From the NCBI GenBank assembly GCA_001516125.1, contig LOEX01000053.1, positions 1-45,247 on the forward strand: a stretch of DNA of 45,247 nt, given 5' to 3'. This stretch comes from Sphingomonadales bacterium BRH_c42. Lineage in GTDB: Bacteria > Pseudomonadota > Alphaproteobacteria > Sphingomonadales > Sphingomonadaceae. Below the pieces are notes generated by a model, which was not told the DNA's origin, searched no databases, and saw nothing but the letters and a program-made list of their open reading frames with translations. Positions within the stretch are counted from its first letter, which is position 1; each line of letters opens with the position of its first letter. Positions 3,494-34,834 of the stretch are shown here, piece by piece. The translations under genes were made by a program, and so were the position numbers.

Positions 3494-3497
3494 AGGG

Positions 3498-5382: not shown

Positions 5383-5516
5383 ACAAATTTTTGTTTGCGC
5401 CGGGCAGCAATCTTCGGGACGAAAATTTCCTTGAATTGCGAGGATATCGGCAGAATTGAACGCACGAAATGACGCAAAATCAATTCGAATGACGGATTTT
5501 CTTGCAAAATTTTGCA
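5383..5516. promoter_or_regulatory. Candidate operator region between divergent GH13 operon and MFS gene
   Basis: Perfect 14-bp palindrome TGCAAAATTTTGCA at 5503-5516 and ACAAATTTTTGT at 5383-5394, inside the 328-bp divergent intergenic region. Confidence 0.45.
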
Positions 5517-5658
5517 GTTGAGCCAGATTGAGCGATGAGAAGGCTGATCGGGCAGCCTGTGACGATCCGCGCATGGTAGCGATATTGCCGCGTCCGTCCA
5601 CAGGCAAAGCAGGCGGCAAACCGGGTCGACGGCCCGGACTTGGGGAGAGGCAGGGCAG

Positions 5659-10161: not shown

Positions 10162-10196
10162 GCACCGCGGGGCGTCCCGGTTTTTCCGATAAAAAT

Positions 10197-10208
10197 GAAA
10201 GCGCTTCC
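10197..10208. promoter_or_regulatory. LacI-type operator candidate 1 upstream of TonB receptor
   Basis: GAAAGCGCTTCC with palindromic AGCGCT core; followed by TTGACA at 10218-10223, a possible -35. Confidence 0.6.
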
Positions 10209-10253
10209 AATTCGTACTTGACATCATCCTGCTCATAGCCAATCACTCACATT

Positions 10254-10265
10254 GAGAGCGCTTCC
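10254..10265. promoter_or_regulatory. LacI-type operator candidate 2 upstream of TonB receptor
   Basis: GAGAGCGCTTCC, sharing AGCGCTTCC with site 1; 57 bp centre to centre. Confidence 0.6.
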
Positions 10266-10364
10266 ATATACGGAGGCTCTCGAGTCGCAGCGATGCGGCA
10301 GGAGGGGTTTTCTGGATTTGTGATCGACGGGGAGTAATCCCCGCGCCTGGAGAGGATTTTGAAC

Positions 10365-13247: not shown

Positions 13248-13254
13248 TCGGACA

Positions 13255-13282
13255 CGGGTCGGCGGTCACGGCTGCCGACCCG
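13255..13282 (+). terminator. Hairpin in TBDR-GH3 gap (attenuator, partial terminator or mRNA stabiliser)
   Basis: CGGGTCGGC-10 nt-GCCGACCCG, perfect 9-bp stem, 7 nt after the TBDR stop. Only a weak U-tract follows (GAATTTCTTG). Confidence 0.4.
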
Positions 13283-13410
13283 GAATTTCTTGTGGCGAAG
13301 AAACGAGTTATCGCTCCGGCGCAGGCCCTTCGGGTTGTCGCGTGGCGCCGGGTTCTTGCGACCGGCAAGGCCTGGCGCAGGTGCAGGTTCGACATCGAGG
13401 TGGCGAAAAC

Positions 13411-15375: not shown

Positions 15376-15406
15376 AGGCATCTGGCCGCGAAGGAGTGCA
15401 GGCGCG

Positions 15407-18345: not shown

Positions 18346-19625
18346 ACCCTGCGGCGCGTACGGTGCGCCACCTTTCGGGCTTTTCGGCGGCCTTCGCCAC
18401 CGTCACCACGCTGTTCTTTGCCTGGGGGTTCATCGCTTCCAACAACGATCCGCTGATCGCCTCGCTCAAGGCCAGTTTTCACCTGAGCTATACCGAAGCG
18501 CTGATGGTCCAGCTGGTGTCGTTTGCCGCATATGGCGTAATGTCGTTCCCGGCGGCGGCCCTGCTCGGGCGCGTAGGACCGGTCAATGCGATCCTCGCGG
18601 CACTGGGCGTGATGATCGCGAGCTGCCTGCTGCTGCGTTTCGTGATCCGGTTCCAGGATTTCGCCCTAATCCTGTGCGCGCTGTTCGTGCTTGCTGCGGG
18701 CATGACCACGTTGCAGGTGGCCGCCAACCCGCTGGCAGCAGCGCTGGGACCGCCAGAATCGAGCCACTTCCGGCTGACCTTTGCCCAGGCGTTCAATTCG
18801 CTGGGCGTGGTTCTGGGGGTCAATTTCGGTTCGCGCATCATGCTCGACGAGCGAGTGATCAAGGCCGGCCATGCGCCGATCATCAATGAGGCCGACCGCA
18901 TCCTGGCGCTGGACGCGGTGGGCGAGACGTTCCTCCTCATCGCGGCAATGCTTGCGGGGTTGCTGGTGTTCATTGCTGCATCGCGCAGGCAGATTGGCGC
19001 GGCCAGGGCAGCGCAGGCCTGCCCGCAGCCGACATCGGTGCTTGAAGCATTGCGCTCGCGCTGGGCGATCTTCGGTGCTGTCGCCATCGGGCTTTACGTC
19101 GGGGCAGAGGTTTCGATCGGGTCGGTCATGATCAACTTCCTCAACCAGGAGGAAATCATGGGCCTGCCGCTCGAAACGGCGGGATTCTACCTCGCTAATG
19201 TTTACTGGATGGGGGCGCTGATTGGCCGTTTCATCGGCAGCTTTCTGCTCACCCGGCTGCCCGCGCCGCGCCTGCTGTTGATCGCCGCCGGGATGGCATC
19301 TGCGCTGTGCCTGCTCGTCGCGCTCAGCGATGGTCGTGTGGCGGGCTTTGCCGCGCTTGCGGTCGGGCTGTTCAACTCGATCATGTTCCCCACGATCTTC
19401 ACCATCACGCTCGAACGATCGGGAGTGTCGCAGGCTTCCACCTCGGGCCTGCTGTGCCTCGCCATCGTAGGTGGGGCGCTACTACCCTATGTGGTTGGGC
19501 AACTGGCCGACCAGGCCAGCCTGTCGCTGGCATTTTTCGTGCCGATGCTGGCCTATGGCGCGATCTGTGTTTTCGGGATCCTGGCGCAGAATGGGCGCAT
19601 GGCCCGGCAACCGGCCGCGCGATGA
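18342..19625 (+). CDS. MFS sugar transporter, FucP/GluP type
   Basis: FFAWGFIASNNDPLIASLKASFHLSY, MTTLQVAANPLAAALGPPESSHFRLTFAQAFNSLG; ATGA overlap with GH30. Confidence 0.92.
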   Translation: MNPAARTVRHLSGFSAAFATVTTLFFAWGFIASNNDPLIASLKASFHLSYTEALMVQLVSFAAYGVMSFPAAALLGRVGPVNAILAALGVMIASCLLLRFVIRFQDFALILCALFVLAAGMTTLQVAANPLAAALGPPESSHFRLTFAQAFNSLGVVLGVNFGSRIMLDERVIKAGHAPIINEADRILALDAVGETFLLIAAMLAGLLVFIAASRRQIGAARAAQACPQPTSVLEALRSRWAIFGAVAIGLYVGAEVSIGSVMINFLNQEEIMGLPLETAGFYLANVYWMGALIGRFIGSFLLTRLPAPRLLLIAAGMASALCLLVALSDGRVAGFAALAVGLFNSIMFPTIFTITLERSGVSQASTSGLLCLAIVGGALLPYVVGQLADQASLSLAFFVPMLAYGAICVFGILAQNGRMARQPAAR

Positions 19626-21145
19626 GCGCCGGATCGGGCAGCCGAACCTGCCGTATGCATCGAGGCCGGTTGGTAGTGGCCGCCGCGCTGGCATTGGCCA
19701 TGCCGGCGCAATCTTCCGCGGACAGCGGCGGACCATTGGTGCTCGATCCGCATGGATGGGCTCGCGTGGCGACGGTCGGCCCGCAATATCTTTCGTTCAA
19801 CATCGAGATGGCCGAGGTCACGGGGGGCGAGTTCTGGGCGCCATATGGCGATCCGTTCGAGCGCAGGCTTGCGCCGCGTCCGCCGCTGGATCTCACCGAC
19901 CCGCGCCTGGTGGTGCTGGCGCGTGCGCTCGGCCCCACGGTGATCCGGGTAAGCGGCACCTGGGCAAACAGTACCTATATTCCGGCAGAGGGCGAGCGGA
20001 CGCCGTCAGCCCCGCCGCCCGGTTTCGGTCAGGTACTGGGGCGGGATCGCTGGAACCAGCTTGCGGCACTGGTCCGCGCTACCGGCGGCGCGCTGCTGTT
20101 GTCGTTCCCGGCGAGCGCAGGCGCACGGCATGAAGACGGTAGCTGGTCCAGCGAACAGGCGGGAAGGCTAGTCGCGCTGGCGGGCTCGACGCAGACACCG
20201 ATTGCGGCGGTCGAGTTTGTCAATGAGCCCAATCTTGTGCGGATCGGCGCGTTGCCGCCCGACTATTCGGCTATGGACTATGCGCGCGATTTCACACTGT
20301 TCCGGCAGTTTGCGCAGCGTGAATTGCCCGGTGTCGCGGTCCTGGGGCACAGCACTTCGGGCAAGGGCGGCGAACTGCCGGTCGAGAGTATCGTCATCGC
20401 CGCTGGCGGGCAGGCCGATGTCGTCAGCTATCACTTCTATGGCGCCCTGTCGGCGCGATGCTCCGAGTTCGGGAACCAGACGTCTGCGGACGAGGCACTT
20501 TCGCAGGAGTGGTTGTCGCGCACCCAGGCGGATCACGACTGGTATGCCGGACAGCGCGACCGCCACGATCCGGGCAAGCCGATCTGGCTGACCGAAACCG
20601 CGCAGGCCGCCTGCGGCGGTGACGTGTGGGCATCGACCTTTCGCGACACGTTCCGCTTTCTCGACCAACTCGGACGGCTCGCCCGGGCGAATGTCCAATT
20701 GGTCGCGCATAATACGCTGGCCTCGGGCGATTACGCGCTGGTCGACCGCGAAACGATGGAGGCGCGTCCAAATTTCTGGGCGGCTGTGCTGTGGCGGGAG
20801 ACCATGGGTGTGGGGGTTCTCGACCCTGCTGTCGATACGCAGGGCTATTCAATCCACGCGCATTGCCATCCCGCTCGCGGGGGCGGTGTCACCTTGCTCG
20901 TGCTCTCGCTGTCGGACAGGCCGGGTCGCCTGACCATTCCCGTCGCAGCACAGGTCACTGAACTGGCGGCTTCCGATCTTGACGCGCGCACTGTTACCGT
21001 GAACGGCACCCCGCCCAAGATAACGCAAGCAGGGCCGAAGGCCTGGCCGGTCAGGCGCAAACGGGCCGGATCGGTGCTGCGCCTGCGACCGCACAGTGCC
21101 GTGTTCATTGAAATGCGCAAGGCGGGCAATCCCGCCTGCAACTGA
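19622..21145 (+). CDS. GH79/heparanase-like glycoside hydrolase, secreted
   Basis: Signal peptide-like N-terminus; LSFNIEMAEVTGGEFW, VEFVNEPNLVRIG (acid/base NEP), PIWLTETAQAACGGDVWASTFRDTFRFLDQLGRLARANVQLVAHNTLASGDYALVD, which resembles the heparanase nucleophile region. ATGA overlap with MFS. Confidence 0.75.
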   Translation: MSAGSGSRTCRMHRGRLVVAAALALAMPAQSSADSGGPLVLDPHGWARVATVGPQYLSFNIEMAEVTGGEFWAPYGDPFERRLAPRPPLDLTDPRLVVLARALGPTVIRVSGTWANSTYIPAEGERTPSAPPPGFGQVLGRDRWNQLAALVRATGGALLLSFPASAGARHEDGSWSSEQAGRLVALAGSTQTPIAAVEFVNEPNLVRIGALPPDYSAMDYARDFTLFRQFAQRELPGVAVLGHSTSGKGGELPVESIVIAAGGQADVVSYHFYGALSARCSEFGNQTSADEALSQEWLSRTQADHDWYAGQRDRHDPGKPIWLTETAQAACGGDVWASTFRDTFRFLDQLGRLARANVQLVAHNTLASGDYALVDRETMEARPNFWAAVLWRETMGVGVLDPAVDTQGYSIHAHCHPARGGGVTLLVLSLSDRPGRLTIPVAAQVTELAASDLDARTVTVNGTPPKITQAGPKAWPVRRKRAGSVLRLRPHSAVFIEMRKAGNPACN

Positions 21146-21151
21146 GAAAAA

Positions 21152-22069
21152 TCATTTTGGGGAACGGCGGCAACGCCCGCCATTACCCTGTTGCGGATCG
21201 AGCAGTGCGACCACGGGGAAATGGTCGGACGCCGCCCTGCCATTCTCGTGCTGGGCGATCACGCCGTGGACGCGCACCGCGATGGTGGGGCTGGTGAAGA
21301 CATGATCGATCAGTTTGCCCTCCCTAGGGAACGGATCGAATCCGTTGAAGCTGATCCTCGGCCCGAAGCTTCCCATGGCGGAGGCAGTCTTCGCGTCCAC
21401 GAGAGCCGCGCCTTGGGCGGAGCCAGCCGTCAGTTGCTGCACCGACGGTTCATCGGCCCCCGCATTGAAATCTCCCAGCACGACGACCTCTTCGCCCTTG
21501 CGCCGGTTGCGGGCGATCCATTCGAGCATCATCGCGCCGGAGTGCATCCGCGCGACCGTTCCGACATGATCCCAATGGGTGTTGAGCACCAGGAGGCGGC
21601 TACCACCGAAGCGGCGGCTAATCCGTGCCCAGGTGACCATCCGCTTGAACGCCCCATCCCAGCCAAGCGAAGGGACATCGGGTGTGGGAGAGAGCCAGAA
21701 CGTGCCGTGCTCCGTAACGCGAAACTGCCTCCGGTCGATGGCGAGCGGCGCGAATTCACCCTGCTCCCGTCCGTCATCGCGGCCCACACCCAGGACGATA
21801 TAATCGGGCAGGGCAGTTTCAAGCTCGCGCTTCTGGTGGGGCAGCACTTCCTGCAAGCCGAGCAGCTCGGGCCGCATTGTGGCGATCTGCCCGATCAGAA
21901 AATCGCGCCGGTGCGGCCAGGCGTCGTCGCCATCGGCAGGCGTATCGAGCCGGATGTTATAGGTCATTGCGAGCAGCGGCGGTCTGTCGCACGCCGCACG
22001 GGCGGGGCCTGCGATGGCTGGGGCGGCGAACAGGCCAAGCGTCAGGGCAAGAAGGATTCTTGTAAGCAT
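21152..22069 (-). CDS. Endonuclease/exonuclease/phosphatase (EEP) family hydrolase, secreted
   Basis: Signal peptide MLTRILLALTLGLFAAPAIA; MTYNIRLD, LLGLQEVLPHQ, LNTHWDHVG, VVLGDFNAG, ASDHFPVVA. Confidence 0.9.
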   Translation of the reverse strand: MLTRILLALTLGLFAAPAIAGPARAACDRPPLLAMTYNIRLDTPADGDDAWPHRRDFLIGQIATMRPELLGLQEVLPHQKRELETALPDYIVLGVGRDDGREQGEFAPLAIDRRQFRVTEHGTFWLSPTPDVPSLGWDGAFKRMVTWARISRRFGGSRLLVLNTHWDHVGTVARMHSGAMMLEWIARNRRKGEEVVVLGDFNAGADEPSVQQLTAGSAQGAALVDAKTASAMGSFGPRISFNGFDPFPREGKLIDHVFTSPTIAVRVHGVIAQHENGRAASDHFPVVALLDPQQGNGGRCRRSPK

Positions 22070-22100
22070 CCGATGGGTTCCTGGTGACTACGCGCGGCGA

Positions 22101-22793
22101 TCAACGACAATAGGGGCTTTTGCTTGCCTTGGCACCGCGCAGCGCGGCGCCGACACGGTTCTTCCAGATCGCATAGCCCTTGTGGTTCATGTGCAAGCGG
22201 TCCGAAATGTACAAATCGGCTCGCGGTTCACCCTGATCGAGCATCGGGGCGGCGATATCGATGAACACCAGGTCATCCTCACGCGCGGCCATCGCTTCGA
22301 TGCGGCGGTTGAAATCGCTCTGCGCGGCGAACTGCTGCCAGCGCGCGGGCGAAGGCTTGGCGGTGATGAAGAACACCGGGGTTGCACCGTGTACCTCGCG
22401 CTTGCGGTGCATGAAAGCGTCGAACTGTGCAGCCGCTGCTTCGGGCGTCATGCCTGCGTCGAGGTCGTTCTCGCCCGCGTAGAACACGATCTGTCGGGGG
22501 CGGTAACGCCCGACCACGGCATCGAAGCGGTAATTGATGTCGGCAATCGTGGCTCCGCCAAATCCGCGCCTGATGATCGGCCTGCCGGGAAAGTCGCGGT
22601 CGATCCCGAACCAGAACCGGATCGAGGAACTGCCAACGAACAGTGTCGCGCACGAGGGGGCGGGACGAACCTCGTCCTCGATCGAAAAGACATGGATTTC
22701 GTCACCGAAACGCGCGGACTCCGATTGGGCGCCGACGGGAGAGCAGGGCAAGGCTGCCAGTGCAAGCCCGACCAGCCGGATCGTCCGTATCAT
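22101..22793 (-). CDS. SGNH/GDSL-type esterase, secreted
   Basis: Signal peptide MIRTIRLVGLALAALPCSPVGAQ. SGNH blocks: LFVGSSSIRFW (I), RGFGGATI (II), YAGENDLD (III), SDRLHMNHKGY (V). Listed ORF starts at 22877; ATG 22793 preferred. Confidence 0.88.
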   Translation of the reverse strand: MIRTIRLVGLALAALPCSPVGAQSESARFGDEIHVFSIEDEVRPAPSCATLFVGSSSIRFWFGIDRDFPGRPIIRRGFGGATIADINYRFDAVVGRYRPRQIVFYAGENDLDAGMTPEAAAAQFDAFMHRKREVHGATPVFFITAKPSPARWQQFAAQSDFNRRIEAMAAREDDLVFIDIAAPMLDQGEPRADLYISDRLHMNHKGYAIWKNRVGAALRGAKASKSPYCR

Positions 22794-22918
22794 CCTCGAC
22801 AAGATCACAGCGGTTCGCCCTCGCCCGTCCGATTGGTACCCTGATGCCACCATGGCGGACGGTCCGCGATGGCACAAGCAAAACAGGGCTTCAATTCTGC
22901 CGATTTCGCCTTAAGAAC

Positions 22919-22939
22919 TGTAATCGGTTCCAGTAACCG
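22919..22939. promoter_or_regulatory. Degenerate copy of TGTAACCGGTTACA-type operator
   Basis: TGTAATCGGTTCCA (2 mismatches to TGTAACCGGTTACA) running into GTAACCG; 24 bp upstream of the halogenase-like start and within the divergent region with the SGNH gene. Confidence 0.5.
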
Positions 22940-22962
22940 GCACCATCGGAAGGAAGAGGACG

Positions 22963-24546
22963 ATGGAGGAGAACATACCCATTTCGCGAATCGTCATCGT
23001 CGGCGGGGGTACGGCGGGATGGATGACAGCGGCGCTGCTTTCCCGGCTATTCTCCACCGGCTACTCGATCACACTGATCGAGGCGAGCGACATCGGCACG
23101 ATCGGCGTGGGCGAGGCGACCATCCCGGCGATCAAGATCTACAACGAGATGGCCGGGATCGACGATCTCGACCTGCTGCGTGAGGCGCATGCGACCTACA
23201 AACTGGGCATCGAATTCGTCAACTGGCGTGAGCCTGGCCACTCATACATCCACGGTTTCGGCAACATCGGCCAGGACTTGCTGTGGCTTCATACGCACCA
23301 GTTCTATCTGCGTCATCGCGCGTCGGGCCAACTCGGCCACTTCGACAATTATGCGATCAATTGCGCCGCCGCGCGCCGTGCCGCCATGGCAACCCCGGAC
23401 AAGCGCAACCCTGGCTCGCCGTTCAGCGACCTCGATTATGCCTTCCATTTCGATGCCACCGCCTATGCCGCCTTCCTGCGTAAGCGCGCGGAGGCGCAAG
23501 GGGTGGCGCGGATCGACGGGCGAATCGTCGAGGTTTCGAAGTGTCCACAGCGCGGCTTCGTCGAAAGCGTCACCCTGGCTGACGGGCGGGTGATCGGCGG
23601 GGACCTGTTCGTCGACTGCTCGGGGATGCGGGGCCTGCTGATCGGCGATGCCATGGGGGTGGATTACCAGGACTGGAGCCAGTGGCTGCTGTGCAACCGT
23701 GCACTCGCCGTTCCGTGCGAAAATGCGCCGGTACTCTCTTCCTCCACCCGCTCGACTGCGCATGGTGCCGGGTGGCAATGGCGCATTCCCCTTCAGCACC
23801 GGATCGGCAACGGGCTGGTTTATGCGGCGGAGCATCTGAGCGACGACGAGGCTTCCGCGATCCTGCTCGCCAACCTAGACGGCGCCGCGCTCAAGGACCC
23901 GATGCCGGTACGGTTCCGCCCTGGTAGACGGGAGCGTTCGTGGGAAAGGAACGTCGTCGCCATCGGGCTTTCGAGCGGTTTCCTCGAGCCACTCGAATCG
24001 ACCTCGATCCACCTGATCCAGACCGGAATCTTCCGGCTGATTTCACTGTTTCCCGGTCGATCCTTCAATCAGGCGGACATCGATGAATACAACCGCCAGA
24101 CAGCGTTTGAATACGAGGACGTGCGCGATTTCATCATAGCGCATTACAAGGTGACCCGGCGCGAGGATACGCCATTCTGGGCCTATCTCAAGCATATGGA
24201 GGTGCCGCAAAGTCTGGCCGAACGGCTGGAGCTGTTCGCATCGGCGGCCCGCTTCTTCCAGCACGGCAAGGCCGAACTGTTCCGCGAGGAAAGCTGGGTC
24301 CAGGTGTTGCTGGGCCAGGGGTTCGAGGCAGCTCCCGATCCGATGGTCGATCTGGTCCCCGCCGACCAGGCAATGGCATTTCTCAAGGACATCGAGGAAG
24401 TCATCGCCGACAATGCCACGCGCATGCTCGACCATGCCGAATACATCCGGCGCAAGCTGGCGACGCAGCAGCAGCCTGCGCCCACGCTCCGCGTCGGTGC
24501 GGCGGGACCCGTGTCGAGCGTCGACCCGGCTTTCGGCGAACCCTAG
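22963..24546 (+). CDS. Tryptophan halogenase family flavoprotein
   Basis: IVIVGGGTAGWMTAALLS, IGTIGVGEATIPAIKIYNEM, TYKLGIEFVNW, GAGWQWRIPLQHR; 527 aa. Confidence 0.93.
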   Translation: MEENIPISRIVIVGGGTAGWMTAALLSRLFSTGYSITLIEASDIGTIGVGEATIPAIKIYNEMAGIDDLDLLREAHATYKLGIEFVNWREPGHSYIHGFGNIGQDLLWLHTHQFYLRHRASGQLGHFDNYAINCAAARRAAMATPDKRNPGSPFSDLDYAFHFDATAYAAFLRKRAEAQGVARIDGRIVEVSKCPQRGFVESVTLADGRVIGGDLFVDCSGMRGLLIGDAMGVDYQDWSQWLLCNRALAVPCENAPVLSSSTRSTAHGAGWQWRIPLQHRIGNGLVYAAEHLSDDEASAILLANLDGAALKDPMPVRFRPGRRERSWERNVVAIGLSSGFLEPLESTSIHLIQTGIFRLISLFPGRSFNQADIDEYNRQTAFEYEDVRDFIIAHYKVTRREDTPFWAYLKHMEVPQSLAERLELFASAARFFQHGKAELFREESWVQVLLGQGFEAAPDPMVDLVPADQAMAFLKDIEEVIADNATRMLDHAEYIRRKLATQQQPAPTLRVGAAGPVSSVDPAFGEP

Positions 24547-24590
24547 ACGGCGTCTTGACCGCGCCATCCGGGCCACATGTGAAATAAACT

Positions 24591-24604
24591 TGTAACCGGT
24601 TACA
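24591..24604. promoter_or_regulatory. LacI-type operator, perfect palindrome
   Basis: TGTAACCGGTTACA, 94 bp upstream of the TBDR start; identical 14-mer at 32281-32294. Confidence 0.8.
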
Positions 24605-24697
24605 GAAAACGATAATCAGAGGTTAATACTGGTCGATTCGTTCGGCCTGGAAACGGTCCGGCAACGAATTCGGACCAGAACAAGGGAGGAGAGGGGC

Positions 24698-27600
24698 GTG
24701 GATCACAGCAATCATTCCATTCGCCGCAGGCTGGCGGTAACGGGTTCGACGGCGGCATTGGCCTTGGCATTGCTCGCGGCGCAGCCGGTGTATGCGCAGT
24801 CGGACGCCGCGGTTCTGCAAGGCCGTGTCGACGGCGCGCAGGCAGGTGCCGTGGTGGTGGTGACCGATATTCACACCGGGCAGCAGCGCACGGGCAAGGT
24901 CGACGAACAGGGCAACTACGTCATCATCGGCCTGCGTCCTTCGACCTATCGGGTGGAAGTGGAAGGCCGCGACCCGATGGAAACGACGCTGCTCATCGGG
25001 CAGACGTCGGTGGTCGATTTCACCGACGCCTCGCGCGAGATCGTGGTGCGCGGCGGACGAATCGTGCAGGAAGTGCGCACGCAAAGCGTGGTGACCAATG
25101 TCACTCCCGCGCAGATCGAACATCTGCCGCAGAACAAGCGCAACTTCCTCGCCTTTGCCGAACTGGCGCCGGGCCTTTCCGTGTCACGCGGCGGCAACGC
25201 CCAGATCCAGGCGGGCAGTGTGGCATCGAGCAACGTCAACGTCTTCCTTGACGGGGTCAGCATCAAGAACCCGATCAATCACGGCGGAGTGCTCGGCCAG
25301 AACTTCGGCCTCGGCAACCCCTTCCCACAGATCGCGATCCAGGAATACAAGGTCGAAACGCAGAATTTCGGCGCGGAAACCGGCCAGGCAGGCTCCGCGG
25401 TGCTGACCGCCATCACCAAGACCGGCGGCGACGAGTTCCACGGATCCGCCTTCATCCAGTTCCAGCCCAAGGGGTTCATCACCCAGCCTTTCTTCGACAA
25501 GCAGCGGGGATTTGAGAAGCCGGATTATAACCGCAAGCAGTTTGGCGGTGAACTGGGCGGGCCGATCATTCCGGGCAAGCTGAACTTCTATGTCGCGATG
25601 GAAGGCACCGACCAGAATCTGCCCGGTGCCACCGGCAACGTGACGACGCCGATTCCGCAGAACCTGGCCAGCGAAGTCAACGTCACCCACAATAACGACT
25701 TCAAACAGCAGCTCTATTTCGGCAAGTTGACCTTCTATGCCTCGGGCGAAGATACGATTAACCTTTCGGGCTTCATCCGCAGCGAGAACAATCTTTCCGA
25801 TATCGACGGCAATGCCACGCCCAGCCATGGACGTACGATCCGCACCAACGAGGATCGTTACCAGCTCAACTGGACCCATGCCGGCGACGACATCTACAAC
25901 GTCCTCAATATTTCCTATCTCAAGGCCACGCAGTCGACCCCCAGTGTAGGCACCGGACCGGAGCTGATCCTGGCGCAGGGCACCAGTTTCGATGCGATCG
26001 TGCGGGCCGGGGCCCATTTCTTCGAGCAGGGCGATCGGACAAGGGCGCTGACGTTCCGCGACGATCTGACGCTGGCACGCGGCGATCATCGTATCAAGCT
26101 GGGTGCGCAGGTCGCCTTCCTGGATCTGACGCGCAATGTCTCGGATCATTTCAACGGGTCGTTCTTCTTCACCAACCCCGGCGCCGTCGCCAGTTTCGAT
26201 TTCGAGACCGCCACGCCGTTCGGCGCGCAGATCAATCTTCAGCCAAGCGACGAGCTTTCGTCAAGCGATACGCAGATCGGCCTCTACGCCCAGGACGAAT
26301 GGGCCCCCGACGAGCACTGGACCGTCAATCTTGGCTTGCGTTGGGACTTCGAATCGAACGCCAACAACAACAATTACGTCACCCCGCAGGCAGTAGCCGA
26401 CGCGCTGCGCAACTATCCCGGCTGGGCGGCGAACGGGATCGATCCGGAAGATTTCATCTCAACCGGCGACAATCGCGGGCGCGAATGGGGCGCCTTCCAG
26501 CCGCGCCTGGGCATTTCGTACGACGTTCATGGCGACCGTGACCTGGTATTCTTTGCCGGGGCCGGGCGCTATTACGATCGCAACCTCTTCATCGAAGGGG
26601 TGATCGAAACGCTGACCAATGAAAACAAGACGGTGACGGTGCCGTTCTGTTCGGCAACGGTCACCACCGGCTGCCTCGACTATTCCTCGGCGCTGCGCGA
26701 CACGGACGCACTCCGCGCAGCGGCGGCACCCTTGTTCCCGGGCGGCGGCAGCGTTTTCGTACTCAACAACAAGACCTCGCTGCCCTATTCCGATCAGTTC
26801 AACATCGGCGTACGCAAGCGGTTCGGCGATATCCAGGCATCGCTGACGCTGAGTCACATCGAGTCGGACAACATCTTCCAGTTTGTGCGCTCCAACTTCT
26901 TCGAGAACGGCTGGTTCTCGCGCTTCGTGACGCGCGATGCCAACGGCAATGTCACCGGCTGCACCGATGGCGGGCGCAACTGGATCCAGGACTTCAGCCC
27001 CGGCGGATTGTCCAATGGCGACGGATCGCCGGTGCCGGTTTCGGTTTGCGCGGCGCAGAATGCGCAGCTCGCCGGGTTTTCGGGCAAGCTCGATCGCGGT
27101 GTGTCCGACGGCAAGGCGCGCTTTACCGGGCTCTATTTCGAGCTGGAGAAGCCGTTTACCGACGTCAGCGAGTGGGGCTTCCGTTCGGTGCTCACCATAC
27201 AGCGGGCCACCTCGAACGTCGCGATGGAACTCAACGGCGACGAGTTCTTCAACGGTGCCGACCAGACCGGGTTCGGTTGGCAGAAGGTCAACGGGATCGA
27301 AGATTGGCGCTATGTCCTGACCGGAAACTGGCGGGCGCCGTGGGACATCGACCTGTCGGGCTTCCTCACGCTCACTTCGGGGCCGCGTTTCGGCACCCTT
27401 CAGGCGCCATGGAATGGCGGCCCTGCCGCACCTGATGGGGCGTGCTGTGTCGGTAACCTTGGCGGCCCACTCTCGCCCAAGCGATTCATCGGTTACAAAC
27501 GATTTGACCTGCGCGTGGCCAAGACCTTCAAGATGCCATATGGCGAAGGGCACGAACTGACGGTCGATTTCCAGGCCTTCAACGTGTTCAACTGGCTCAA

Positions 27601-27715
27601 CCGCAATTATTCGTCGTGGGGCGCTGGCGGCGGTGTCCCGCCGCCACTGGTCGAAGACAGTCAGGTGGGCAACGATGCCCGCAGCTTCCAGGCGGGGATC
27701 AAATACCGGTTCTGA
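24698..27715 (+). CDS. TonB-dependent receptor with N-terminal carboxypeptidase-regulatory-like domain (Oar-like)
   Basis: GTG start with GGGAGGAGAGG upstream; signal peptide; VLQGRVDGAQAGAVVVVTDIHTGQQRTGKVDEQGNYVIIGLRPSTYRVEVEG; plug; C-terminal FQAGIKYRF. Confidence 0.94.
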   Translation: MDHSNHSIRRRLAVTGSTAALALALLAAQPVYAQSDAAVLQGRVDGAQAGAVVVVTDIHTGQQRTGKVDEQGNYVIIGLRPSTYRVEVEGRDPMETTLLIGQTSVVDFTDASREIVVRGGRIVQEVRTQSVVTNVTPAQIEHLPQNKRNFLAFAELAPGLSVSRGGNAQIQAGSVASSNVNVFLDGVSIKNPINHGGVLGQNFGLGNPFPQIAIQEYKVETQNFGAETGQAGSAVLTAITKTGGDEFHGSAFIQFQPKGFITQPFFDKQRGFEKPDYNRKQFGGELGGPIIPGKLNFYVAMEGTDQNLPGATGNVTTPIPQNLASEVNVTHNNDFKQQLYFGKLTFYASGEDTINLSGFIRSENNLSDIDGNATPSHGRTIRTNEDRYQLNWTHAGDDIYNVLNISYLKATQSTPSVGTGPELILAQGTSFDAIVRAGAHFFEQGDRTRALTFRDDLTLARGDHRIKLGAQVAFLDLTRNVSDHFNGSFFFTNPGAVASFDFETATPFGAQINLQPSDELSSSDTQIGLYAQDEWAPDEHWTVNLGLRWDFESNANNNNYVTPQAVADALRNYPGWAANGIDPEDFISTGDNRGREWGAFQPRLGISYDVHGDRDLVFFAGAGRYYDRNLFIEGVIETLTNENKTVTVPFCSATVTTGCLDYSSALRDTDALRAAAAPLFPGGGSVFVLNNKTSLPYSDQFNIGVRKRFGDIQASLTLSHIESDNIFQFVRSNFFENGWFSRFVTRDANGNVTGCTDGGRNWIQDFSPGGLSNGDGSPVPVSVCAAQNAQLAGFSGKLDRGVSDGKARFTGLYFELEKPFTDVSEWGFRSVLTIQRATSNVAMELNGDEFFNGADQTGFGWQKVNGIEDWRYVLTGNWRAPWDIDLSGFLTLTSGPRFGTLQAPWNGGPAAPDGACCVGNLGGPLSPKRFIGYKRFDLRVAKTFKMPYGEGHELTVDFQAFNVFNWLNRNYSSWGAGGGVPPPLVEDSQVGNDARSFQAGIKYRF

Positions 27716-27744
27716 TGGCTGCCCCGGAAAATGCGGGTCCACAA

Positions 27745-27790
27745 GGGCAGGCAAGATGCGGTATCCTCCGTCTTGCCTGCCCCGTTTTTT
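27745..27790 (+). terminator. Rho-independent terminator downstream of TonB receptor
   Basis: GGGCAGGCAAGA (27745-27756) / TCTTGCCTGCCC (27771-27782), perfect 12-bp stem, 14-nt loop, followed by CGTTTTTT. Confidence 0.9.
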
Positions 27791-27802
27791 AATAGGTGGA
27801 CT

Positions 27803-28498
27803 GTGCAGCCCACGCGCCAGCTTGTCGGGATCAGTCGCACTCCGGTGCTTACGGTGGATGAAATCGGCCCGGAACCGGCGGCCATCATCGCCATGGCCCA
27901 GGCACTCGGCCCGTTTCCGTATGCGGCCAACAATTATCCCGGGCTGCGCCGGATCATTGGGCCCGCCGACAACGCAGCCTGGACCTATGTCACCAGCTTG
28001 CTGAAAGATGCGGCGAGCTTCATCGGCGGTGCATTCGATGTCGATGGTTTCGATCTCGTCGAGGCCAGCTTTTCGCTGGTGACCACACGCCCCCAGGCGC
28101 TGACCCCAGTGCAGCGCCTGCCGCATTTCGACAGCGTGGACGAGGATCTGATCGCGCTGCTGCACTATGCGGCGCCGTGCGCGGGCACCGCCTTTTACCG
28201 TCATATTGCAACGGGGCTGGAGCTGGTCACGCCAGATAACGTGGACCGGTTTGTCGCGATTGCCCGCCGCGACGCCCAAAGCGCCGGGCCGCGATACGTT
28301 TACCCCCGTGAGCATGGCGCCTTCGAACCTATCGGCCATGTCGAAGGGCGCGCAGGCAGGCTGGTCGCTTATCCGGGGCGCCTGCTCCATTCGGGCGTAA
28401 TTCCGCAGGGATTCGATTTCAGCGACGATCCCGCCTCGGGCCGGCTCACCACCAACATCTTCCTGAAGACGCGCCTCAATGCCGGAGCGCGGGCCTGA
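27803..28498 (+). CDS. DUF6445-like protein, putative 2OG-Fe(II) oxygenase fold
   Basis: QRLPHFDSVDEDLIALLHYAAPCAGTAFYRH...LVAYPGRLLHSGVIPQGF...SGRLTTNIFL aligns with the ORF at 8342. Listed ORF start (27731) lies upstream of the terminator; GTG 27803 with AGGTGG upstream preferred. Confidence 0.75.
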   Translation: MQPTRQLVGISRTPVLTVDEIGPEPAAIIAMAQALGPFPYAANNYPGLRRIIGPADNAAWTYVTSLLKDAASFIGGAFDVDGFDLVEASFSLVTTRPQALTPVQRLPHFDSVDEDLIALLHYAAPCAGTAFYRHIATGLELVTPDNVDRFVAIARRDAQSAGPRYVYPREHGAFEPIGHVEGRAGRLVAYPGRLLHSGVIPQGFDFSDDPASGRLTTNIFLKTRLNAGARA

Positions 28499-28590
28499 AG
28501 GAATTCGATGTCACCGGTGCCGGGCCTGCGCTAAGCCACATGCGCCGGGCAGTTGCGGTGAAGGCCGGAGAACGAGGGGCAGATGAATCA

Positions 28591-29928
28591 ATGACCGGAC
28601 CGAAACGGCAGAACTGGCGGCTGCTGGTGTTTGCATCGGGCGATTTCGCGTTCAACCTCTATTGGCAGAGCGTTATGCTCTACCTGCTGTTCTACTATAC
28701 CGAGGAACTGCACCTGCCGATCGCCCTGGCATCGCTGGGCTACGCACTGGCATCGATCTGGGACGGAATTGCCAGCCTTCTGGTGGGGGTCCTCGCCGAT
28801 CGGCTGCGTCGACCGGAGCGTTACCGGGCTGTACTGCTGGTCGGGGCCGTGCCACTCGGCCTCAGCTTCGTTCTGGCATATACCGCGCTTCCGGTTGACG
28901 ATGAACGGCAGTTCGTCTGGATTCTGGCTGGGCATCTGCTGTTTCGCACGCTGTATGCTCTCGTCAACATTCCCTACCTGGCGATGTCCGCACGGATCAG
29001 CCTCGACAGCGACGACCGGGCGCTGGTGGTTGGCGCGCGAATGCTGTTCGGCACGCTGGCTGCGGTGATCGTAGCGGTCGGAACCGTTCCCCTGGGCAAG
29101 GTATTGAGCGGTGGCAGCGGGAAGGAGGCCTTTCTGGCGTCGGCCGCGGCGTTTGCAATTGCCGGAACCGTGCTCCTCATCGTGGTCGGCCTGACTTACC
29201 GCGATGCCGATCGGATCCCGGCCGGGCGGACCCACGAAGCCGTTCGCGGAATGATCGCAGCAGTGATGAGCAACCGCGCCTTTCTGGTGCTGAGCGCGGC
29301 GGCGATGGCGATGATCGTGGCAGTGACCGGTCTCGACAAGTCGGTGCTCTACTATTTCAAGTATGCGCTGGATGACGAGCAGGCAGGGCAGCTTACGCTG
29401 GGCTGGATGATGGCGATCAGCGGTGTTGCGATCCCGCTGTGGTGGTGGATCGCACGAAGGTTCGGCGCGCGGAACGTGTGGTTCATGGCGGTCGTAGCCT
29501 GTCTTGTTTGCCTTGTTGTGTTCATCGCCCTTGCATTTGACCGCCCAATGCCGGTGCAGGTCTTCCTGGTCGCGGTGCAGGCCAGCATCGTCGGCCTGCA
29601 CTTCTCATTCTGGGCTATGCTGCCCGACACGGTAGAATACGGTCAGCGTACCACCGGCGTGCGGGGCGAGGCGGTGCTCTATGGCCTCTCGGCCCTGTTT
29701 CAGCGCCTGGCGATCGGTCTTGGCACGCTGCTGGTCGGGATCGGTCTGGGCGGCGAAGGCCTGCACCATGCCGAAGCAGGCGATGCCACCTACAAGATGG
29801 TGCTCGCTGTGATCCCGCTCTGCTTTTTTGCCCTGGCCGGGCTCGTCATGCTGGCCAATCCGCTCAGGCGCGGGAGCCACGGGCAGATTCTCGACGAGCT
29901 GAGGCGGATGAGCGGCACCCGGGACTGA
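28591..29928 (+). CDS. GPH-family (MelB-like) MFS sugar transporter
   Basis: GDFAFNLYWQSVMLYLLFYYTEELHLPIALASLGYALASIWDGIASLLVGVLADR; 'SFWAMLPDTVEYGQRTTGVRGEAVLYGLSALFQRLAIGLG' typical of GPH. Start ATG 28591 preferred over 28540. Confidence 0.9.
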   Translation: MTGPKRQNWRLLVFASGDFAFNLYWQSVMLYLLFYYTEELHLPIALASLGYALASIWDGIASLLVGVLADRLRRPERYRAVLLVGAVPLGLSFVLAYTALPVDDERQFVWILAGHLLFRTLYALVNIPYLAMSARISLDSDDRALVVGARMLFGTLAAVIVAVGTVPLGKVLSGGSGKEAFLASAAAFAIAGTVLLIVVGLTYRDADRIPAGRTHEAVRGMIAAVMSNRAFLVLSAAAMAMIVAVTGLDKSVLYYFKYALDDEQAGQLTLGWMMAISGVAIPLWWWIARRFGARNVWFMAVVACLVCLVVFIALAFDRPMPVQVFLVAVQASIVGLHFSFWAMLPDTVEYGQRTTGVRGEAVLYGLSALFQRLAIGLGTLLVGIGLGGEGLHHAEAGDATYKMVLAVIPLCFFALAGLVMLANPLRRGSHGQILDELRRMSGTRD

Positions 29929-29937
29929 CCGCCTCAG
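29899..29937. terminator. Possible bidirectional terminator between convergent MFS and GH3
   Basis: CTGAGGCGG (29899-29907) / CCGCCTCAG (29929-29937), spanning both 3' ends; no T-tract. Confidence 0.35.
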
Positions 29938-32210
29938 GCTGTGAGACGGATTTTCCCGCTTGCGCCTTCGGCCTGCGCCGACGGTGCGATCCACAGGTCG
30001 AACTCGCCCGGCTCGACCACCGGCTTTTCGTCGAGGCCGTAAAACTCCAGCATCGAACGATCGAGCCGGAACGAGACGGTCTTCGTCTGGTCCGGGGCCA
30101 GCGCGACCTTGTCGAACGCGACAAGTTGCCTGACCGGGCGGGTGACGCTCGCGACACGGTCGTGGATGTAGAACTGGGCTACCTCCTCGATCGCGTGCGA
30201 GCCCGAATTGGTGACGGTGGCCGAAACCGTTACCGCGCCGTCCCATGGCAGGACCTGCCCATCCAGGTGCAGATCGCCATAGCGGACTTCACCATAGGTG
30301 AGGCCGTGCCCAAAGGGAAACAGCGCCTCGTTCGGCACTTCGCGGAACTGCGCCTTGTAATCGACCCGGGGACCCGGCGGCTGCGGGCGGCCGGTCCGCT
30401 TGCGGTCATAGTGGAACGGCTGTTGCCCAGTGTCATAGGGAAAGCTGACCGGCAGGCGCCCCGACGGGCTGTGGCTTCCGTAGAGGATATCGGCAATCGC
30501 GGTGCCGCTTTCTGTGCCAAGATACCAGGTCACCAGTATCGCCTGGGCATCGCGGATCACGCCCTCGAGCGCGAGCGCCCGGCCATTGCGCAGCACGACC
30601 ACCATCGGCTTGCCCAGCTTCGCCACGGCCTCAGCCAGTTCCTGCTGCACACGCGGAACGATGATGTCGGTGCGCGACTGCGCTTCGCCCGACATTGTTT
30701 GCGCTTCGCCGAGCGAGAGAACAACGACATCGGCACCTGTTGCGGCCTCCAATGCCGCCTCGATTCCACCGGGAACCGGTGTCTCGACACCGCAGCCTTC
30801 GGCGACGGTGACCGTGCCGCCGGCTTTGCGCATCCCGGTCGCCAGATCGACAGCCTGCGCATCGTCGCCATAGACCGCCCAGCCACCGATCAGGTCATGC
30901 GGGCCTTCGGCGAAGGGACCGATCAGTGCAACCTTGCTGGAGAGCGGAAGTGGTAGCACGCCGCCTTCGTTCCTGAGCATGACGATCGATTTGCGCCCCG
31001 CCTCACGCGCCAGGGCGATGTTTTGCGCGGTCATCGAGCGTTTGGCTTCGCGCGCAGGGTCGATCCGACGGAAGGGATCGTCGAACAGCCCCAGCACGGC
31101 CTTGATCGTCAGCACTCTCCGGACCGATTCGTCGACCTGGCTTTCTGGAACCAGACCTTCGCGCACCAGCGCGGGCAGGTGCATCATGTAGAGGTTGCTC
31201 GCCATGCTCATGTCCACCCCCGCCAGGATAGACAGCCGCGCGGCGTCCTTGCCGTCCTCGGCAAAGCCGTGCATGATCAGCTCCTCGTCGCCGGTGTAAT
31301 CGGACACGACCATGCCGGGAAACTTCCATTCGCCGCGCAGAAGGTCGGTCATCAGCCACTTGTTGGCGGTCGAGGGCACACCCGAAATCTCGTTGAACGA
31401 AGCCATGGTTGTGAGTGCGCCCGCGTCGAACGACGCCTTGAACGGGGGCAGATAGACCTCGCGCAAGGTCCGCTCCGAAATATCGACGGTGTTGTAGTCA
31501 AGCCCGGCCTCGGCCGCGCCATAGGCGGCGAAATGCTTGGGGCAGGCGAGCATTGCATCGTCCGCAGTGAGGTCATCACCCTGGAAACCCCTGACGCGCG
31601 CCGCAGCGAACAGGCTGCCAAGAAGGATATCCTCGCCGGTACCTTCCATCACACGGCCCCATCGCTGGTCGCGGGCAATGTCGACCATCGGGGCAAAAGT
31701 CCAGTCGATGCCAGCGCCAGCGGCTTCGAATGCGGCGGCCCTGGCGGTGCGTTCCGCAAGCTCTGGCTCGAAGCTCGCAGCCTCGCCCAGCGGTAAGGGA
31801 AACAGCGTTCGATGGCCGTGGATGACATCGGCGGCGAACATCAGCGGGATACCGAGCCGTGACTGGGTCATCACGGCGTGCTGCATGCGGCGCGCCATTT
31901 CTGCGCCATTCCCGTTGAACACACCGGTCAGCTTGCCGGCGACGGCATCCGCCACTTGCTGGTCGAAACTCTGGCCGTTTCCGGGTGGGTTGAATTGAGC
32001 CGCCTTGGACCCCCCCCAGGCGGACGGCAGCAGCGTCAGTTGGCCCGCCTTCTCCTCCAGCGTCATCTTCGCGATCAACGCCTCGATGAAGGGCGCATCG
32101 GCGCGCTTGCCGATCGATCTGGCAAGTGCTGCGAGCGGCGTAGCGGCCCAGGCCGAAGCCAATCCCATCGCCACCAGCATGCTGCGCCGGGTCAACTGCA
32201 TTCTCGACAT
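29934..32210 (-). CDS. GH3 beta-glucosidase (BglX-like), probable Tat substrate
   Basis: Leader MSRMQLTRRSMLVAMGLASAWAATPLAALA (RR motif); MTLEEKAGQLTLLPS, IPLMFAADVIHGHRTLFPLPLGEAAS, GMVVSDYTGDEELI (nucleophile), C-terminal FnIII-like domain. Confidence 0.94.
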   Translation of the reverse strand: MSRMQLTRRSMLVAMGLASAWAATPLAALARSIGKRADAPFIEALIAKMTLEEKAGQLTLLPSAWGGSKAAQFNPPGNGQSFDQQVADAVAGKLTGVFNGNGAEMARRMQHAVMTQSRLGIPLMFAADVIHGHRTLFPLPLGEAASFEPELAERTARAAAFEAAGAGIDWTFAPMVDIARDQRWGRVMEGTGEDILLGSLFAAARVRGFQGDDLTADDAMLACPKHFAAYGAAEAGLDYNTVDISERTLREVYLPPFKASFDAGALTTMASFNEISGVPSTANKWLMTDLLRGEWKFPGMVVSDYTGDEELIMHGFAEDGKDAARLSILAGVDMSMASNLYMMHLPALVREGLVPESQVDESVRRVLTIKAVLGLFDDPFRRIDPAREAKRSMTAQNIALAREAGRKSIVMLRNEGGVLPLPLSSKVALIGPFAEGPHDLIGGWAVYGDDAQAVDLATGMRKAGGTVTVAEGCGVETPVPGGIEAALEAATGADVVVLSLGEAQTMSGEAQSRTDIIVPRVQQELAEAVAKLGKPMVVVLRNGRALALEGVIRDAQAILVTWYLGTESGTAIADILYGSHSPSGRLPVSFPYDTGQQPFHYDRKRTGRPQPPGPRVDYKAQFREVPNEALFPFGHGLTYGEVRYGDLHLDGQVLPWDGAVTVSATVTNSGSHAIEEVAQFYIHDRVASVTRPVRQLVAFDKVALAPDQTKTVSFRLDRSMLEFYGLDEKPVVEPGEFDLWIAPSAQAEGASGKIRLTA

Positions 32211-32280
32211 CCTCCCAGATTGCCAGCCAGCGCCGCATGCCTGAACCAGGAGACAGGTGCCAACATGCGTGCGATTGACA

Positions 32281-32294
32281 TGTAACCGGTTACA
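32281..32294. promoter_or_regulatory. LacI-type operator, perfect palindrome
   Basis: TGTAACCGGTTACA between divergent GH3 (start 32210) and LacI (start 32375); TTGACA immediately 5' at 32275-32280. Confidence 0.8.
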
Positions 32295-32374
32295 TATATG
32301 ACGTTCGCTATTGTGGCAATGGAAATGGCATTGAGCTAAGCAAATGGCAGTTCACCAGACGGAGGCCCATAACC

Positions 32375-33367
32375 ATGGCCAAGCCACCAGCTACGATCCG
32401 CGACGTCGCCCGCCATGCAGGGCTTTCGGTCGCATCGATCTCGCGAGTGCTCAACGGCCACAACCATGTGCATCCCGACACGCGCAAGAAGGTGATCGAA
32501 GCGATGAATGCATTGGGATATATTCCCAACGCCGCCGCGCGCAGCTTGAGCACCGCCAAGAGCCATGCAATCGGCGTGGTACTGCCCGATCTGCACGGCG
32601 AATTCTTTGGCGAGGTCGTGCGCGGCATGGACAAGGCTGCGAGCGAACGCGGCTACCTTCTGCTCCTTTCGACAATGCACGCCGACAGCCGACTGGCGCA
32701 CCAGGCGATGGGCACCATGCGTGGCAGGGTGGATGGCCTCATCATCATGGCACCGCAGCTTTCCGCAGAGGACCTGGCGCAGGCGATACCGGCGGACTTG
32801 CCCGCCGTGCTGATCAACAGCCCCGCCGATGCAACTCATTACAATCTGCGGATAGACAACCGCGGCGGCGTCATGCTGATGGTACGCCATCTGCTGGCAG
32901 GCGGGCGCAAAAACATCGTCCACCTTGCCGGTTATTCAGGCAATCTCGATGCTGCCGAGCGCGCCGATGCGTTCCGCGAAGCCATGCAGATGCTCGCCCC
33001 CGACTTGCCGGTCAGGATCGTGGAAGGCGACTTCACCGACGCGAGCGGGGAGCAATTGGTCCAGCAACTGCTCGCCGACGGGACGCAGTTCGATGCGATC
33101 TTTGCGGCGAACGACATGATGGCGCTGGGCGCGCTGCAAACGCTGCGCACCGTCGGGATCGAAGTCCCGGCGAAAGTGGCGGTTGCAGGTTTCGACGATG
33201 TGCCCATGGCGCGCCATCTCGGCCTTTCGACTGTGCGCGTGGACATGGCCGGCATCGGGGAGCGCGCGGTTCGGCGCTTGATAGATCAGCTCGAAGGTTC
33301 GAGCGAGCCGCCTGCGCTCGCGCGTCAATCACCGACGCTCGTGGCGCGCGCCTCCACCGGCCGCTGA
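32375..33367 (+). CDS. LacI family transcriptional regulator
   Basis: PPATIRDVARHAGLSVASISRVLNGHNHVHPDTRKKVIEAMNALGYIPNAAARSLSTAKS HTH/hinge; RBS GGAGG upstream. Confidence 0.95.
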   Translation: MAKPPATIRDVARHAGLSVASISRVLNGHNHVHPDTRKKVIEAMNALGYIPNAAARSLSTAKSHAIGVVLPDLHGEFFGEVVRGMDKAASERGYLLLLSTMHADSRLAHQAMGTMRGRVDGLIIMAPQLSAEDLAQAIPADLPAVLINSPADATHYNLRIDNRGGVMLMVRHLLAGGRKNIVHLAGYSGNLDAAERADAFREAMQMLAPDLPVRIVEGDFTDASGEQLVQQLLADGTQFDAIFAANDMMALGALQTLRTVGIEVPAKVAVAGFDDVPMARHLGLSTVRVDMAGIGERAVRRLIDQLEGSSEPPALARQSPTLVARASTGR

Positions 33368-33385
33368 CTTTCTTGGGGAGCATGC

Positions 33386-34834
33386 ATGTTTGAGGCTATC
33401 GACCGCCGCAAGGTCCTGCGTGGAATCGGCCTGGTAACGCCGCTGGCCGCAGTTTCGTGCACGCCCTCGGTGCTCGTCGGCAGCGGTTATGGCCGTGAAC
33501 TGCCGGAGTTCTTCACCGACCTGGAATACCGCACGTTTCGGTTCTTCTGGGAACGCGCCAACCCTGCGAACGGGCTGCTTCCCGATCGTTGGCCCACGCC
33601 TTCGTTTTGCAGCATAGCCGCGATCGGATTTGGCATCACCGCTTATGTGATCGGAGCCGAACGCGGCTGGATCACCCGCGATCAGGCGCGCGATCGCATA
33701 CTCCTGACGCTGCGTTTTCTCCATTCTCTTCCGCAGGGTGACGGAACGGAAGGCTTTGCCGGATATCGCGGCTTCTTTTACCATTTCCTCGACATGGACA
33801 CGGGCCTGCGCCACGGCAGGACGGAACTTTCGACCGTGGACACCGGGCTGTTGCACCTGGGCATGCTGCACGCAGCAGCATGGTTCGACCGCGACGATCC
33901 GCTGGAGCGCGAATTGCGTCAGCTCTCCACCCACCTCGTCGATATGGCCGAATGGGACTGGTTCCAGCAGAGCGGCCCGGCGATTCCGATGGGCTGGCAC
34001 CCTGAAACCGGCTTCATCGAACGCAAGTGGGACGGGTATAACGAGGGCAAGCTGGTCTATATCCTGGCGCTCGGATCGGGCGGGTATCCGGCGCGGGAGG
34101 ATAGCTGGCAGGCCTGGACCCGGCCCTATCGAAAATTCTGGCGCGGGGAGGGCGCAAACCGCTGGTTGGCGTTCGCGCCCATCTGGCCGGGGCAATACAG
34201 CGAGATGTGGATCGATTTCCGCGGAATCCAGGATGAACCGATGCGCGAGGCCGGAATCGACTATTTCGAAAATGGTCGACGCGAGGCGCGTGCCAACCAT
34301 GAATGGTGTGCGACCAATCCGATGGGCTGGGACGGCTATGCTTACGACATGTGGGGACTGTGTGCTTGCGACGGCCCGGGTTCGCACCGCGCAATGCGGG
34401 GTGGGCGCGAAGTACAGTTCCGGGGTTATTCGGCGCGCGGTCCGGCCAACGAGCCCGATGGATACGACGACGGCACCATTTCACCCACCGCAGCAATTGG
34501 TGCCATCCCATTCGTGCCCGAACTCGGCATCGCCGCAGCGCTGGCGATGAAGGAACGCTACGGTACCCACCTTTATGGACGCTATGGCTTCCTCGATGCG
34601 TTCAACCCCAGCTTTCGGGACACATCGCTACGGGTCGACAATGGCACGGTCGATCCGGTGAGCGGCTGGGTCGGTGGCGACTGGCTGGGTATCGATCAGG
34701 GGACGATTCTCGGCATGTTGGCGAACTATCGTTCCGATGCGATCTGGAAAGTGATGCGCAAATCGCCGAATATCATCCGCGGGCTGCGCCGCGCAGCCTT
34801 CAGCGGCGGCTGGCTCGACAGTGCCGACGCTTGA
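33386..34834 (+). CDS. Glucoamylase-family (PF10091 / GH144-like) glycoside hydrolase, candidate endo-beta-1,2-glucanase
   Basis: FFTDLEYRTFRFFWERANPANGLLPDRWPTPSFCSIAAIGFGITAYVIGAERGWITRDQA, ELSTVDTGLLHLGMLHAA, YDMWGLCACDGPG, NEPDGYDDGTISPTAAIGAIPFVPE. Leader has RRKVLRG and a cysteine (AAVSC). Confidence 0.88.
   Translation: MFEAIDRRKVLRGIGLVTPLAAVSCTPSVLVGSGYGRELPEFFTDLEYRTFRFFWERANPANGLLPDRWPTPSFCSIAAIGFGITAYVIGAERGWITRDQARDRILLTLRFLHSLPQGDGTEGFAGYRGFFYHFLDMDTGLRHGRTELSTVDTGLLHLGMLHAAAWFDRDDPLERELRQLSTHLVDMAEWDWFQQSGPAIPMGWHPETGFIERKWDGYNEGKLVYILALGSGGYPAREDSWQAWTRPYRKFWRGEGANRWLAFAPIWPGQYSEMWIDFRGIQDEPMREAGIDYFENGRREARANHEWCATNPMGWDGYAYDMWGLCACDGPGSHRAMRGGREVQFRGYSARGPANEPDGYDDGTISPTAAIGAIPFVPELGIAAALAMKERYGTHLYGRYGFLDAFNPSFRDTSLRVDNGTVDPVSGWVGGDWLGIDQGTILGMLANYRSDAIWKVMRKSPNIIRGLRRAAFSGGWLDSADA

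Follow-up and report, generated by a model that had tools for sequence, protein, structure and literature searches.

We analyzed a 45,247-nucleotide stretch of Sphingomonadales bacterium BRH_c42 (contig LOEX01000053.1, positions 1-45,247; hereafter the window), from an Erythrobacter-like genome, in which two sets of glucan utilization genes lie side by side. The GH30 module (module A, 9103-22877) contains genes for a LacI regulator, a TonB-dependent receptor (TBDR), GH3, a Trp-halogenase-family protein (Trp-halogenase 1), GH30, FucP, a GH79-like hydrolase, SGNH and EEP, and the GH144 module (module B, 22963-34834) contains those for Trp-halogenase 2, TBDR, DUF6445, GPH, GH3, LacI and GH144. 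The module boundary was placed between 22877 and 22963, based on the synteny in congeners, the EEP and GH144 trees and the gene content of the nearest GH144 loci. The stretch is probably the junction of two separately LacI-controlled, TonB-type modules, with the EEP and SGNH genes coming from module A by descent and possibly being under the switch of module B.

The original prediction had treated 21152-34834 as one possible utilization locus for decorated beta-1,2-glucan. The genes it named (GH144-like, GH3, TBDR, GPH, EEP and SGNH) were all found in place by profile searches, but the interval cuts into the module at 9103-22877: it is the tail of the GH30 module plus the GH144 module, not a single ancestral locus. 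The rest of the GH30 module (9103-21145) had been missed, as had Trp-halogenase 2 (22963), DUF6445 (27731) and LacI (32375) inside the interval. Relatives were sought in 301 genomes of the order and 114 genomes of the genus, and genes outside the window were predicted with a simple codon-usage caller. Gene content, synteny, phylogeny and operator distribution were determined directly, and the catalytic activities named below are predictions from family and residues.

Descent of the EEP and SGNH genes

21152..22069, - strand: secreted EEP hydrolase, GH30 module by descent (Pfam; PDB 3g6s, 3mpr and 4c1r, E 1e-38 to 1e-40; tree; synteny)
22101..22793 (alternative start 22877; 22793 likelier), - strand: secreted SGNH/GDSL esterase-like protein (Pfam Lipase_GDSL_2; catalytic blocks; GH30-module synteny)

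The two genes are separated by 31 bp, and both encode signal-peptide-like N-termini. The metal/catalytic set of the EEP (Asn, Glu, His, Asp/Asn, Asp-His) is intact and invariant among 33 homologs, and the SGNH protein keeps the GSSS, GFGG, GxND and DxLH blocks, in line with the earlier proposal that both are secreted hydrolases. The nearest PDB relatives of the EEP are Bacteroides proteins, the closest with a named function being a mannosyl-6-phosphatase (4c1r). Since these relatives include a mannosyl-6-phosphatase, our best guess is that the EEP cleaves a phosphate ester on a sugar; the SGNH protein is probably an O-acyl esterase. Candidate decorations are phosphoglycerol, succinyl, phosphate and acetyl groups. 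By sequence, the window EEP falls in the same subfamily as 4c1r, 3g6s and 3mpr, whereas its context is beta-glucan, in contrast to mannan for 4c1r.

Within the genus, GH144 was present in 5 genomes and EEP in 6, and only the window genome and G386 had both. In four congeners (G133, G320, G327 and G347), the order TBDR-GH3-Trp-halogenase 1-GH30-FucP leads directly into EEP-SGNH, with an optional Cupin_8 and then GH2 coming next; none of these four genomes contained a GH144. In the EEP tree (33 rows), the window EEP grouped with seven GH30-linked EEPs (100/100). Among the nearest 80 named GH144 loci, an EEP lay within 10 kb in 1/80 and an SGNH in 0/80. By synteny and phylogeny, the window EEP and SGNH are thus parts of the GH30 module.

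EEP homologs also accompany GH144 in other genomes. Besides that of the window, 17 genomes of the order sample have one within ~10 kb of GH144, and with the congener G386 the total comes to 18 Sphingomonadales genomes.

L042, L043, L044, L046, L047, L060, L062-L070, L075, L112: recurrent Sphingomonadales EEP-GH144 loci

The EEPs of 16 of the 18 belong to the subfamily of the window EEP, and those of G178 and G045 fall in a more distant clade. A typical locus holds TBDR-GH144, GH3, an alpha/beta-hydrolase and a gene of the sulfatase family that is close to 6-O-sulfatases; many add a GH1 with a sugar ABC transporter. Most bear the GH144-module operator described below (TGTAACCGGTTACA), often before the EEP-containing operon. 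Judged from these gene contents, encoding an EEP with GH144 is a recurrent design, yet it is not the ancestry of the window EEP. The proposed partnership of EEP with GH144 has parallels in the 18 other genomes but does not describe the origin of the window EEP and SGNH; GH144 loci of the window's own clade lack both genes.

Two candidate functions in these EEP-GH144 loci were discarded. A conserved cluster beside the EEP resembled ugpBAEC/ugpQ (glycerol-phosphate uptake) by gene lengths and would have spoken for phosphoglycerol, but Pfam identified its members as a generic sugar ABC transporter, a GH1 and an alpha/beta-hydrolase. The sulfatase-family gene was considered as a phosphodiesterase, but its PDB neighbors are mostly sulfatases, and the best-named of them act on 6-O-sulfate.

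Operators of the two modules

10195..10267, no strand: two A-type operators, GAAAGCGCTTCC and GAGAGCGCTTCC, before the GH30-module TBDR (relatives have TTGGAAGCGCTTCCAA at the same place)
22919..22932, no strand: B-type operator variant TGTAATCGGTTCCA in the divergent SGNH/Trp-halogenase 2 gap (two mismatches to TGTAACCGGTTACA)
24591..24604, no strand: perfect B-type operator TGTAACCGGTTACA before the module-B TBDR
32281..32294, no strand: perfect B-type operator TGTAACCGGTTACA in the GH3/LacI-22 divergent gap (position conserved across the majority of GH144 loci that have this GH3-LacI pair)

The modules are told apart by two palindromes of LacI type, and the recognition helices of the two regulators differ accordingly (SVASISRVLN in LacI-22 of module B versus ARATVSRVLN in LacI-8 of module A). 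The B-type operator was intergenic in 98/121 GH144 loci and in 0/12 GH30-only loci, and the A-type operator TTGGAAGCGCTTCCAA was intergenic in 0/121 GH144 loci. Only 0.02 B-type matches up to the level of variant TGTAATCGGTTCCA are expected per shuffled window, and the variant is identical to the copy before the TBDR of a Parvularcula GH144 locus.

In the four congeners with EEP-SGNH behind GH30, the pair is under the GH30-module LacI operator (GGAAGCGCTTCC), and 4/4 carry an A-type site in the divergent gap that separates EEP from SGNH or Cupin_8. For the window SGNH-EEP pair, no A-type site was found within four mismatches of 16. The 22919 site lies 31 bp from the start of Trp-halogenase 2, and its distance to the SGNH start (22793) is ~126 bp. 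Most LacI-family sites are found 30-140 bp ahead of the start codon (PMC4052901). Because the window pair lacks an A-type site and shares a gap with a B-type variant at distances typical for LacI, it is plausible that SGNH-EEP has been captured by the GH144 regulon, and the pair may be co-induced with GH144. No sigma-70-like promoter was matched in the SGNH/Trp-halogenase 2 gap.

GH144 enzyme and other genes of the modules

33386..34834, + strand: GH144-family protein, endo-beta-1,2-glucanase type (PF10091 E 1.7e-67; PDB search; tree; residues)

This gene, the sole PF10091 gene detected in the metagenome-assembled genome (MAG; 78% complete), had been called GH144-like, and the searches agree. 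The top solved relative of its product was XCC2207/XcSGL (8xul; E 5.5e-144), followed by other GH144 enzymes; the value against CpSGL was E 1e-37. As in XcSGL, a Xanthomonas GH144 endo-beta-1,2-glucanase (PMC12102758) with which it aligns across the whole domain, the protein has the general acid (E220; E239 in XcSGL, E211 in CpSGL), an acidic residue at the base candidate position (D152; E142 in CpSGL) and the subsite -3 tyrosine (Y348; Y367 in XcSGL, Y330 in CpSGL). It differs from XcSGL at the clan residue Phe (F286 in XcSGL, F268 in CpSGL), which is described as defining the clan and lying close to the attacking water (PMC12102758): this position is W267 in the window enzyme and Phe in 44/44 other aligned sequences, and the FGHQYS motif has become WPGQYS. 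The protein departs at 9/137 near-invariant columns, a number exceeded only by the distant CpSGL among the aligned sequences. Because of W267 and these departures, we regard the protein as a GH144 homolog whose enzyme activity is less certain than its family membership.

In the GH144 tree, the window enzyme grouped with those of G342 and G173 (100/100), and then with further loci without EEP. The contig of G342 (Erythrobacter sp. WM.002, PNJY01000017.1) has module B from TBDR to GH144 and the same right flank to PyrB, at 80-95% identity (GH144, 71%), and no EEP was found in this genome at E 1e-40. The synonymous divergence (dS) of GH144 from the G342 copy (L110:8812-10254) was 1.33, well above the 0.43-0.80 of eleven neighboring genes, which suggests that, in one lineage, a diverged allele took the place of the GH144 gene at the same site. 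A ~1020 aa uncharacterized protein with an F5/8 type C domain (L078:6072-9140) adjoins another GH144, with homologs in 29/80 named GH144 loci.

The other genes of module B are as follows.

22963..24546, + strand: Trp-halogenase-family protein 2, first module-B gene (Pfam E 1.4e-178; copies in Stakelama, Sphingomonas and Parvularcula GH144 loci)
24698..27715, + strand: TBDR of the GH144 module, carboxypeptidase-regulatory-domain type (profile search; orthologs 57-59% in GH144 loci)
27731..28498, + strand: DUF6445 protein (profile match; conserved in the GH144 module)
28540..29928, + strand: GPH-type sugar symporter (profile searches)
29934..32210, - strand: GH3 beta-glucosidase, BglX/BT3567/Lin1840 clade, Tat-like signal (NCBIfam BglX E 7e-215; PDB)
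32375..33367, + strand: LacI regulator of the GH144 module, LacI-22 (profile search; helix SVASISRVLN)

Trp-halogenase 2, TBDR, DUF6445, GH3, LacI and GH144, usually with GPH, occur together again in Stakelama, Sphingomonas and Parvularcula. The PDB relatives of the GH3 include BT3567 (5xxl) and Lin1840 (4zo6), GH3 enzymes of beta-1,2-glucan metabolism that act on beta-1,2-glucooligosaccharides (PMC12369401). The family matches to XcSGL, BT3567 and Lin1840 support beta-1,2-glucan as the likely target of the GH144, GH3, GPH and TBDR part, as originally proposed. The window GH3 is of the same clade as those in the sophorooligosaccharide clusters (GH3 Lin1840 in Listeria and GH3 BT3567 in Bacteroides, with GH1 SGR_2426 in Streptomyces; PMC12369401), but the window differs from these clusters in its TonB receptor, GPH symporter, Trp-halogenase, DUF6445 and LacI operator TGTAACCGGTTACA. 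A GH1 with an ABC transporter, like that of S. griseus, occurs in other GH144 loci of this survey (cf. PMC12369401).

Upstream of the SGNH-EEP pair, module A comprises the following genes.

9103..10161, + strand: LacI regulator of the GH30 module, LacI-8, helix ARATVSRVLN (Pfam LacI; conserved beside the GH30-module TBDR)
10359..13247, + strand: TBDR of the GH30 module (ORF sequence; congeners have copies next to GH30 at 71-92% identity)
13411..15375, + strand: GH3 of the GH30 module (Pfam GH3 N and C; NCBIfam best = exo-beta-1,3/1,6-glucosidase, below cut-off)
15407..16918, + strand: Trp-halogenase-family protein 1 (Pfam E 2.7e-201)
16915..18345, + strand: GH30, endo-beta-1,6-glucanase type, BT3312-like (NCBIfam E 4e-95, below cut-off; PDB 5ngk E 7e-74)
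18342..19625, + strand: FucP-like MFS sugar permease (Pfam MFS_1; conserved after GH30)
19766..21145, + strand: GH79/heparanase-like hydrolase (Pfam GH79n; PDB heparanase E 4e-18)

The GH30 retains 12/13 functional residues of BT3312, including the catalytic Glu pair, the exception being N244, replaced by D, and our best guess for the target of module A is therefore a beta-1,6-glucan. The GH30 scored 319 bits against the NCBIfam BT3312 equivalog cut-off of 700 bits, and is thus similar to, but at most a candidate for, an equivalog. The fungal beta-1,6-glucan polysaccharide utilization locus (PUL) BT3309-BT3314 of B. thetaiotaomicron has two enzymes, GH30_3 and GH3 (PMC5481569), and module A shares with it a BT3312-type GH30 plus a GH3; unlike this PUL, module A has a LacI/TBDR/FucP organization, extra EEP, SGNH and GH79-like genes, and no SusD. 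In another taxon, Parvularcula UBA11161, a GH30 (49% identity) adjoins a GH144 module (L154, 1539-16195).

Possible substrates and rival readings

If the stretch is a junction of two modules, the module-B TBDR would take beta-1,2-glucan across the outer membrane, GH144 would cut the chain, GH3 would trim the oligosaccharides and GPH would import the product, with LacI-22 repressing from the TGTAACCGGTTACA operators. The module-A enzymes would act on a beta-1,6-glucan, and the EEP and SGNH, descended from module A, may now be induced together with GH144 by virtue of a module-B operator in place of a module-A one in their promoter gap. Several points weigh against this account: the 22919 operator may serve only Trp-halogenase 2, 31 bp away; the specificity of GH30 is assigned from similarity and residues, at a score below the NCBIfam cut-off; the G342 contig begins within the TBDR, leaving its left flank out of view; and the window genome is a MAG, 78% complete.

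Module A with EEP and SGNH could instead serve only a fungal, lichen or similar beta-1,6-glucan, in which case the nearness of GH144 would be coincidental and the 22919 operator would belong to Trp-halogenase 2 alone. We give this somewhat less than an even chance: it agrees with the enzyme pair of the B. thetaiotaomicron PUL (PMC5481569) and with the four congeners, whose EEP/SGNH stand with GH30 and carry the GH30 operator, but gives no reason why the window SGNH-EEP should have lost its A-type operator. The locus as originally predicted, in which the EEP would remove phosphoglycerol or phosphate and the SGNH succinyl or acyl groups before GH144 and GH3 act on beta-1,2-glucan, now seems improbable. 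Synteny and phylogeny assign the pair to the GH30 module, GH144 loci of the window type lack it, and among EEPs whose function is named, the closest PDB entry is a mannosyl-6-phosphatase. In its favor are the B-type operator in the SGNH/Trp-halogenase 2 gap, the 18 other genomes in which an EEP adjoins GH144, for the most part together with an esterase-like gene and an operator of this type, the SGNH-EEP directly beside GH144 in G178, and the phosphoglycerol, succinate and phosphoethanolamine carried by E. coli osmoregulated periplasmic glucans (OPGs; PMC10514313).

Both modules might also serve one branched polymer, with GH144, GH30, both GH3s, EEP and SGNH covering all bonds of a group 1 OPG, in which beta-1,6 branches sit on a beta-1,2 backbone and to which phosphoglycerol, phosphoethanolamine and succinate may be attached (PMC10514313). 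This structure would fit the combined gene set, the EEP subfamily is common to GH30 and GH144 loci, and a module-B operator lies in the EEP/SGNH gap; the co-occurrence of GH30 with a GH144 module in Parvularcula UBA11161 is a single, and hence thin, further case. We nevertheless consider the idea unlikely, as the modules differ in LacI type and operator and usually occur apart. In addition, BT3312-type GH30 acts on chains of beta-1,6 links and leaves gentiobiose uncut (PMC5481569). OPG branches, by contrast, are short. No MdoG/OpgG, for synthesis of its own OPGs, was found in the window genome, a 78% complete MAG.

Beyond the junction itself, there is a small chance that the secreted EEP subfamily of Sphingomonadales GH30 and GH144 loci strips phospho-substituents from bacterial osmoregulated glucans, that the window pair moved from the GH30 to the GH144 regulon by operator replacement, and that the locus handles branched, decorated OPG. 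If so, the window would be a neat case of accessory enzymes switching regulator with their genes intact. In the literature searched, we found no enzymes that strip phospho-groups or phosphoglycerol from osmoregulated (beta-1,2-)glucans, and the recurrent loci with GH144, EEP, esterase and sulfatase-like genes provide named candidates for such enzymes acting on OPGs. The conserved TGTAACCGGTTACA operator offers a handle for finding the whole GH144 regulon.

Trp-halogenase-family proteins (15407-16918 and 22963-24546), Cupin_8 (7251-8327) and DUF6445 (27731-28498) accompany TonB receptors in sugar modules here and in relatives. A third sugar module, probably for alpha-glucans, adjoins at 801-7224, with a LacI, two GH13 enzymes and an MFS transporter.

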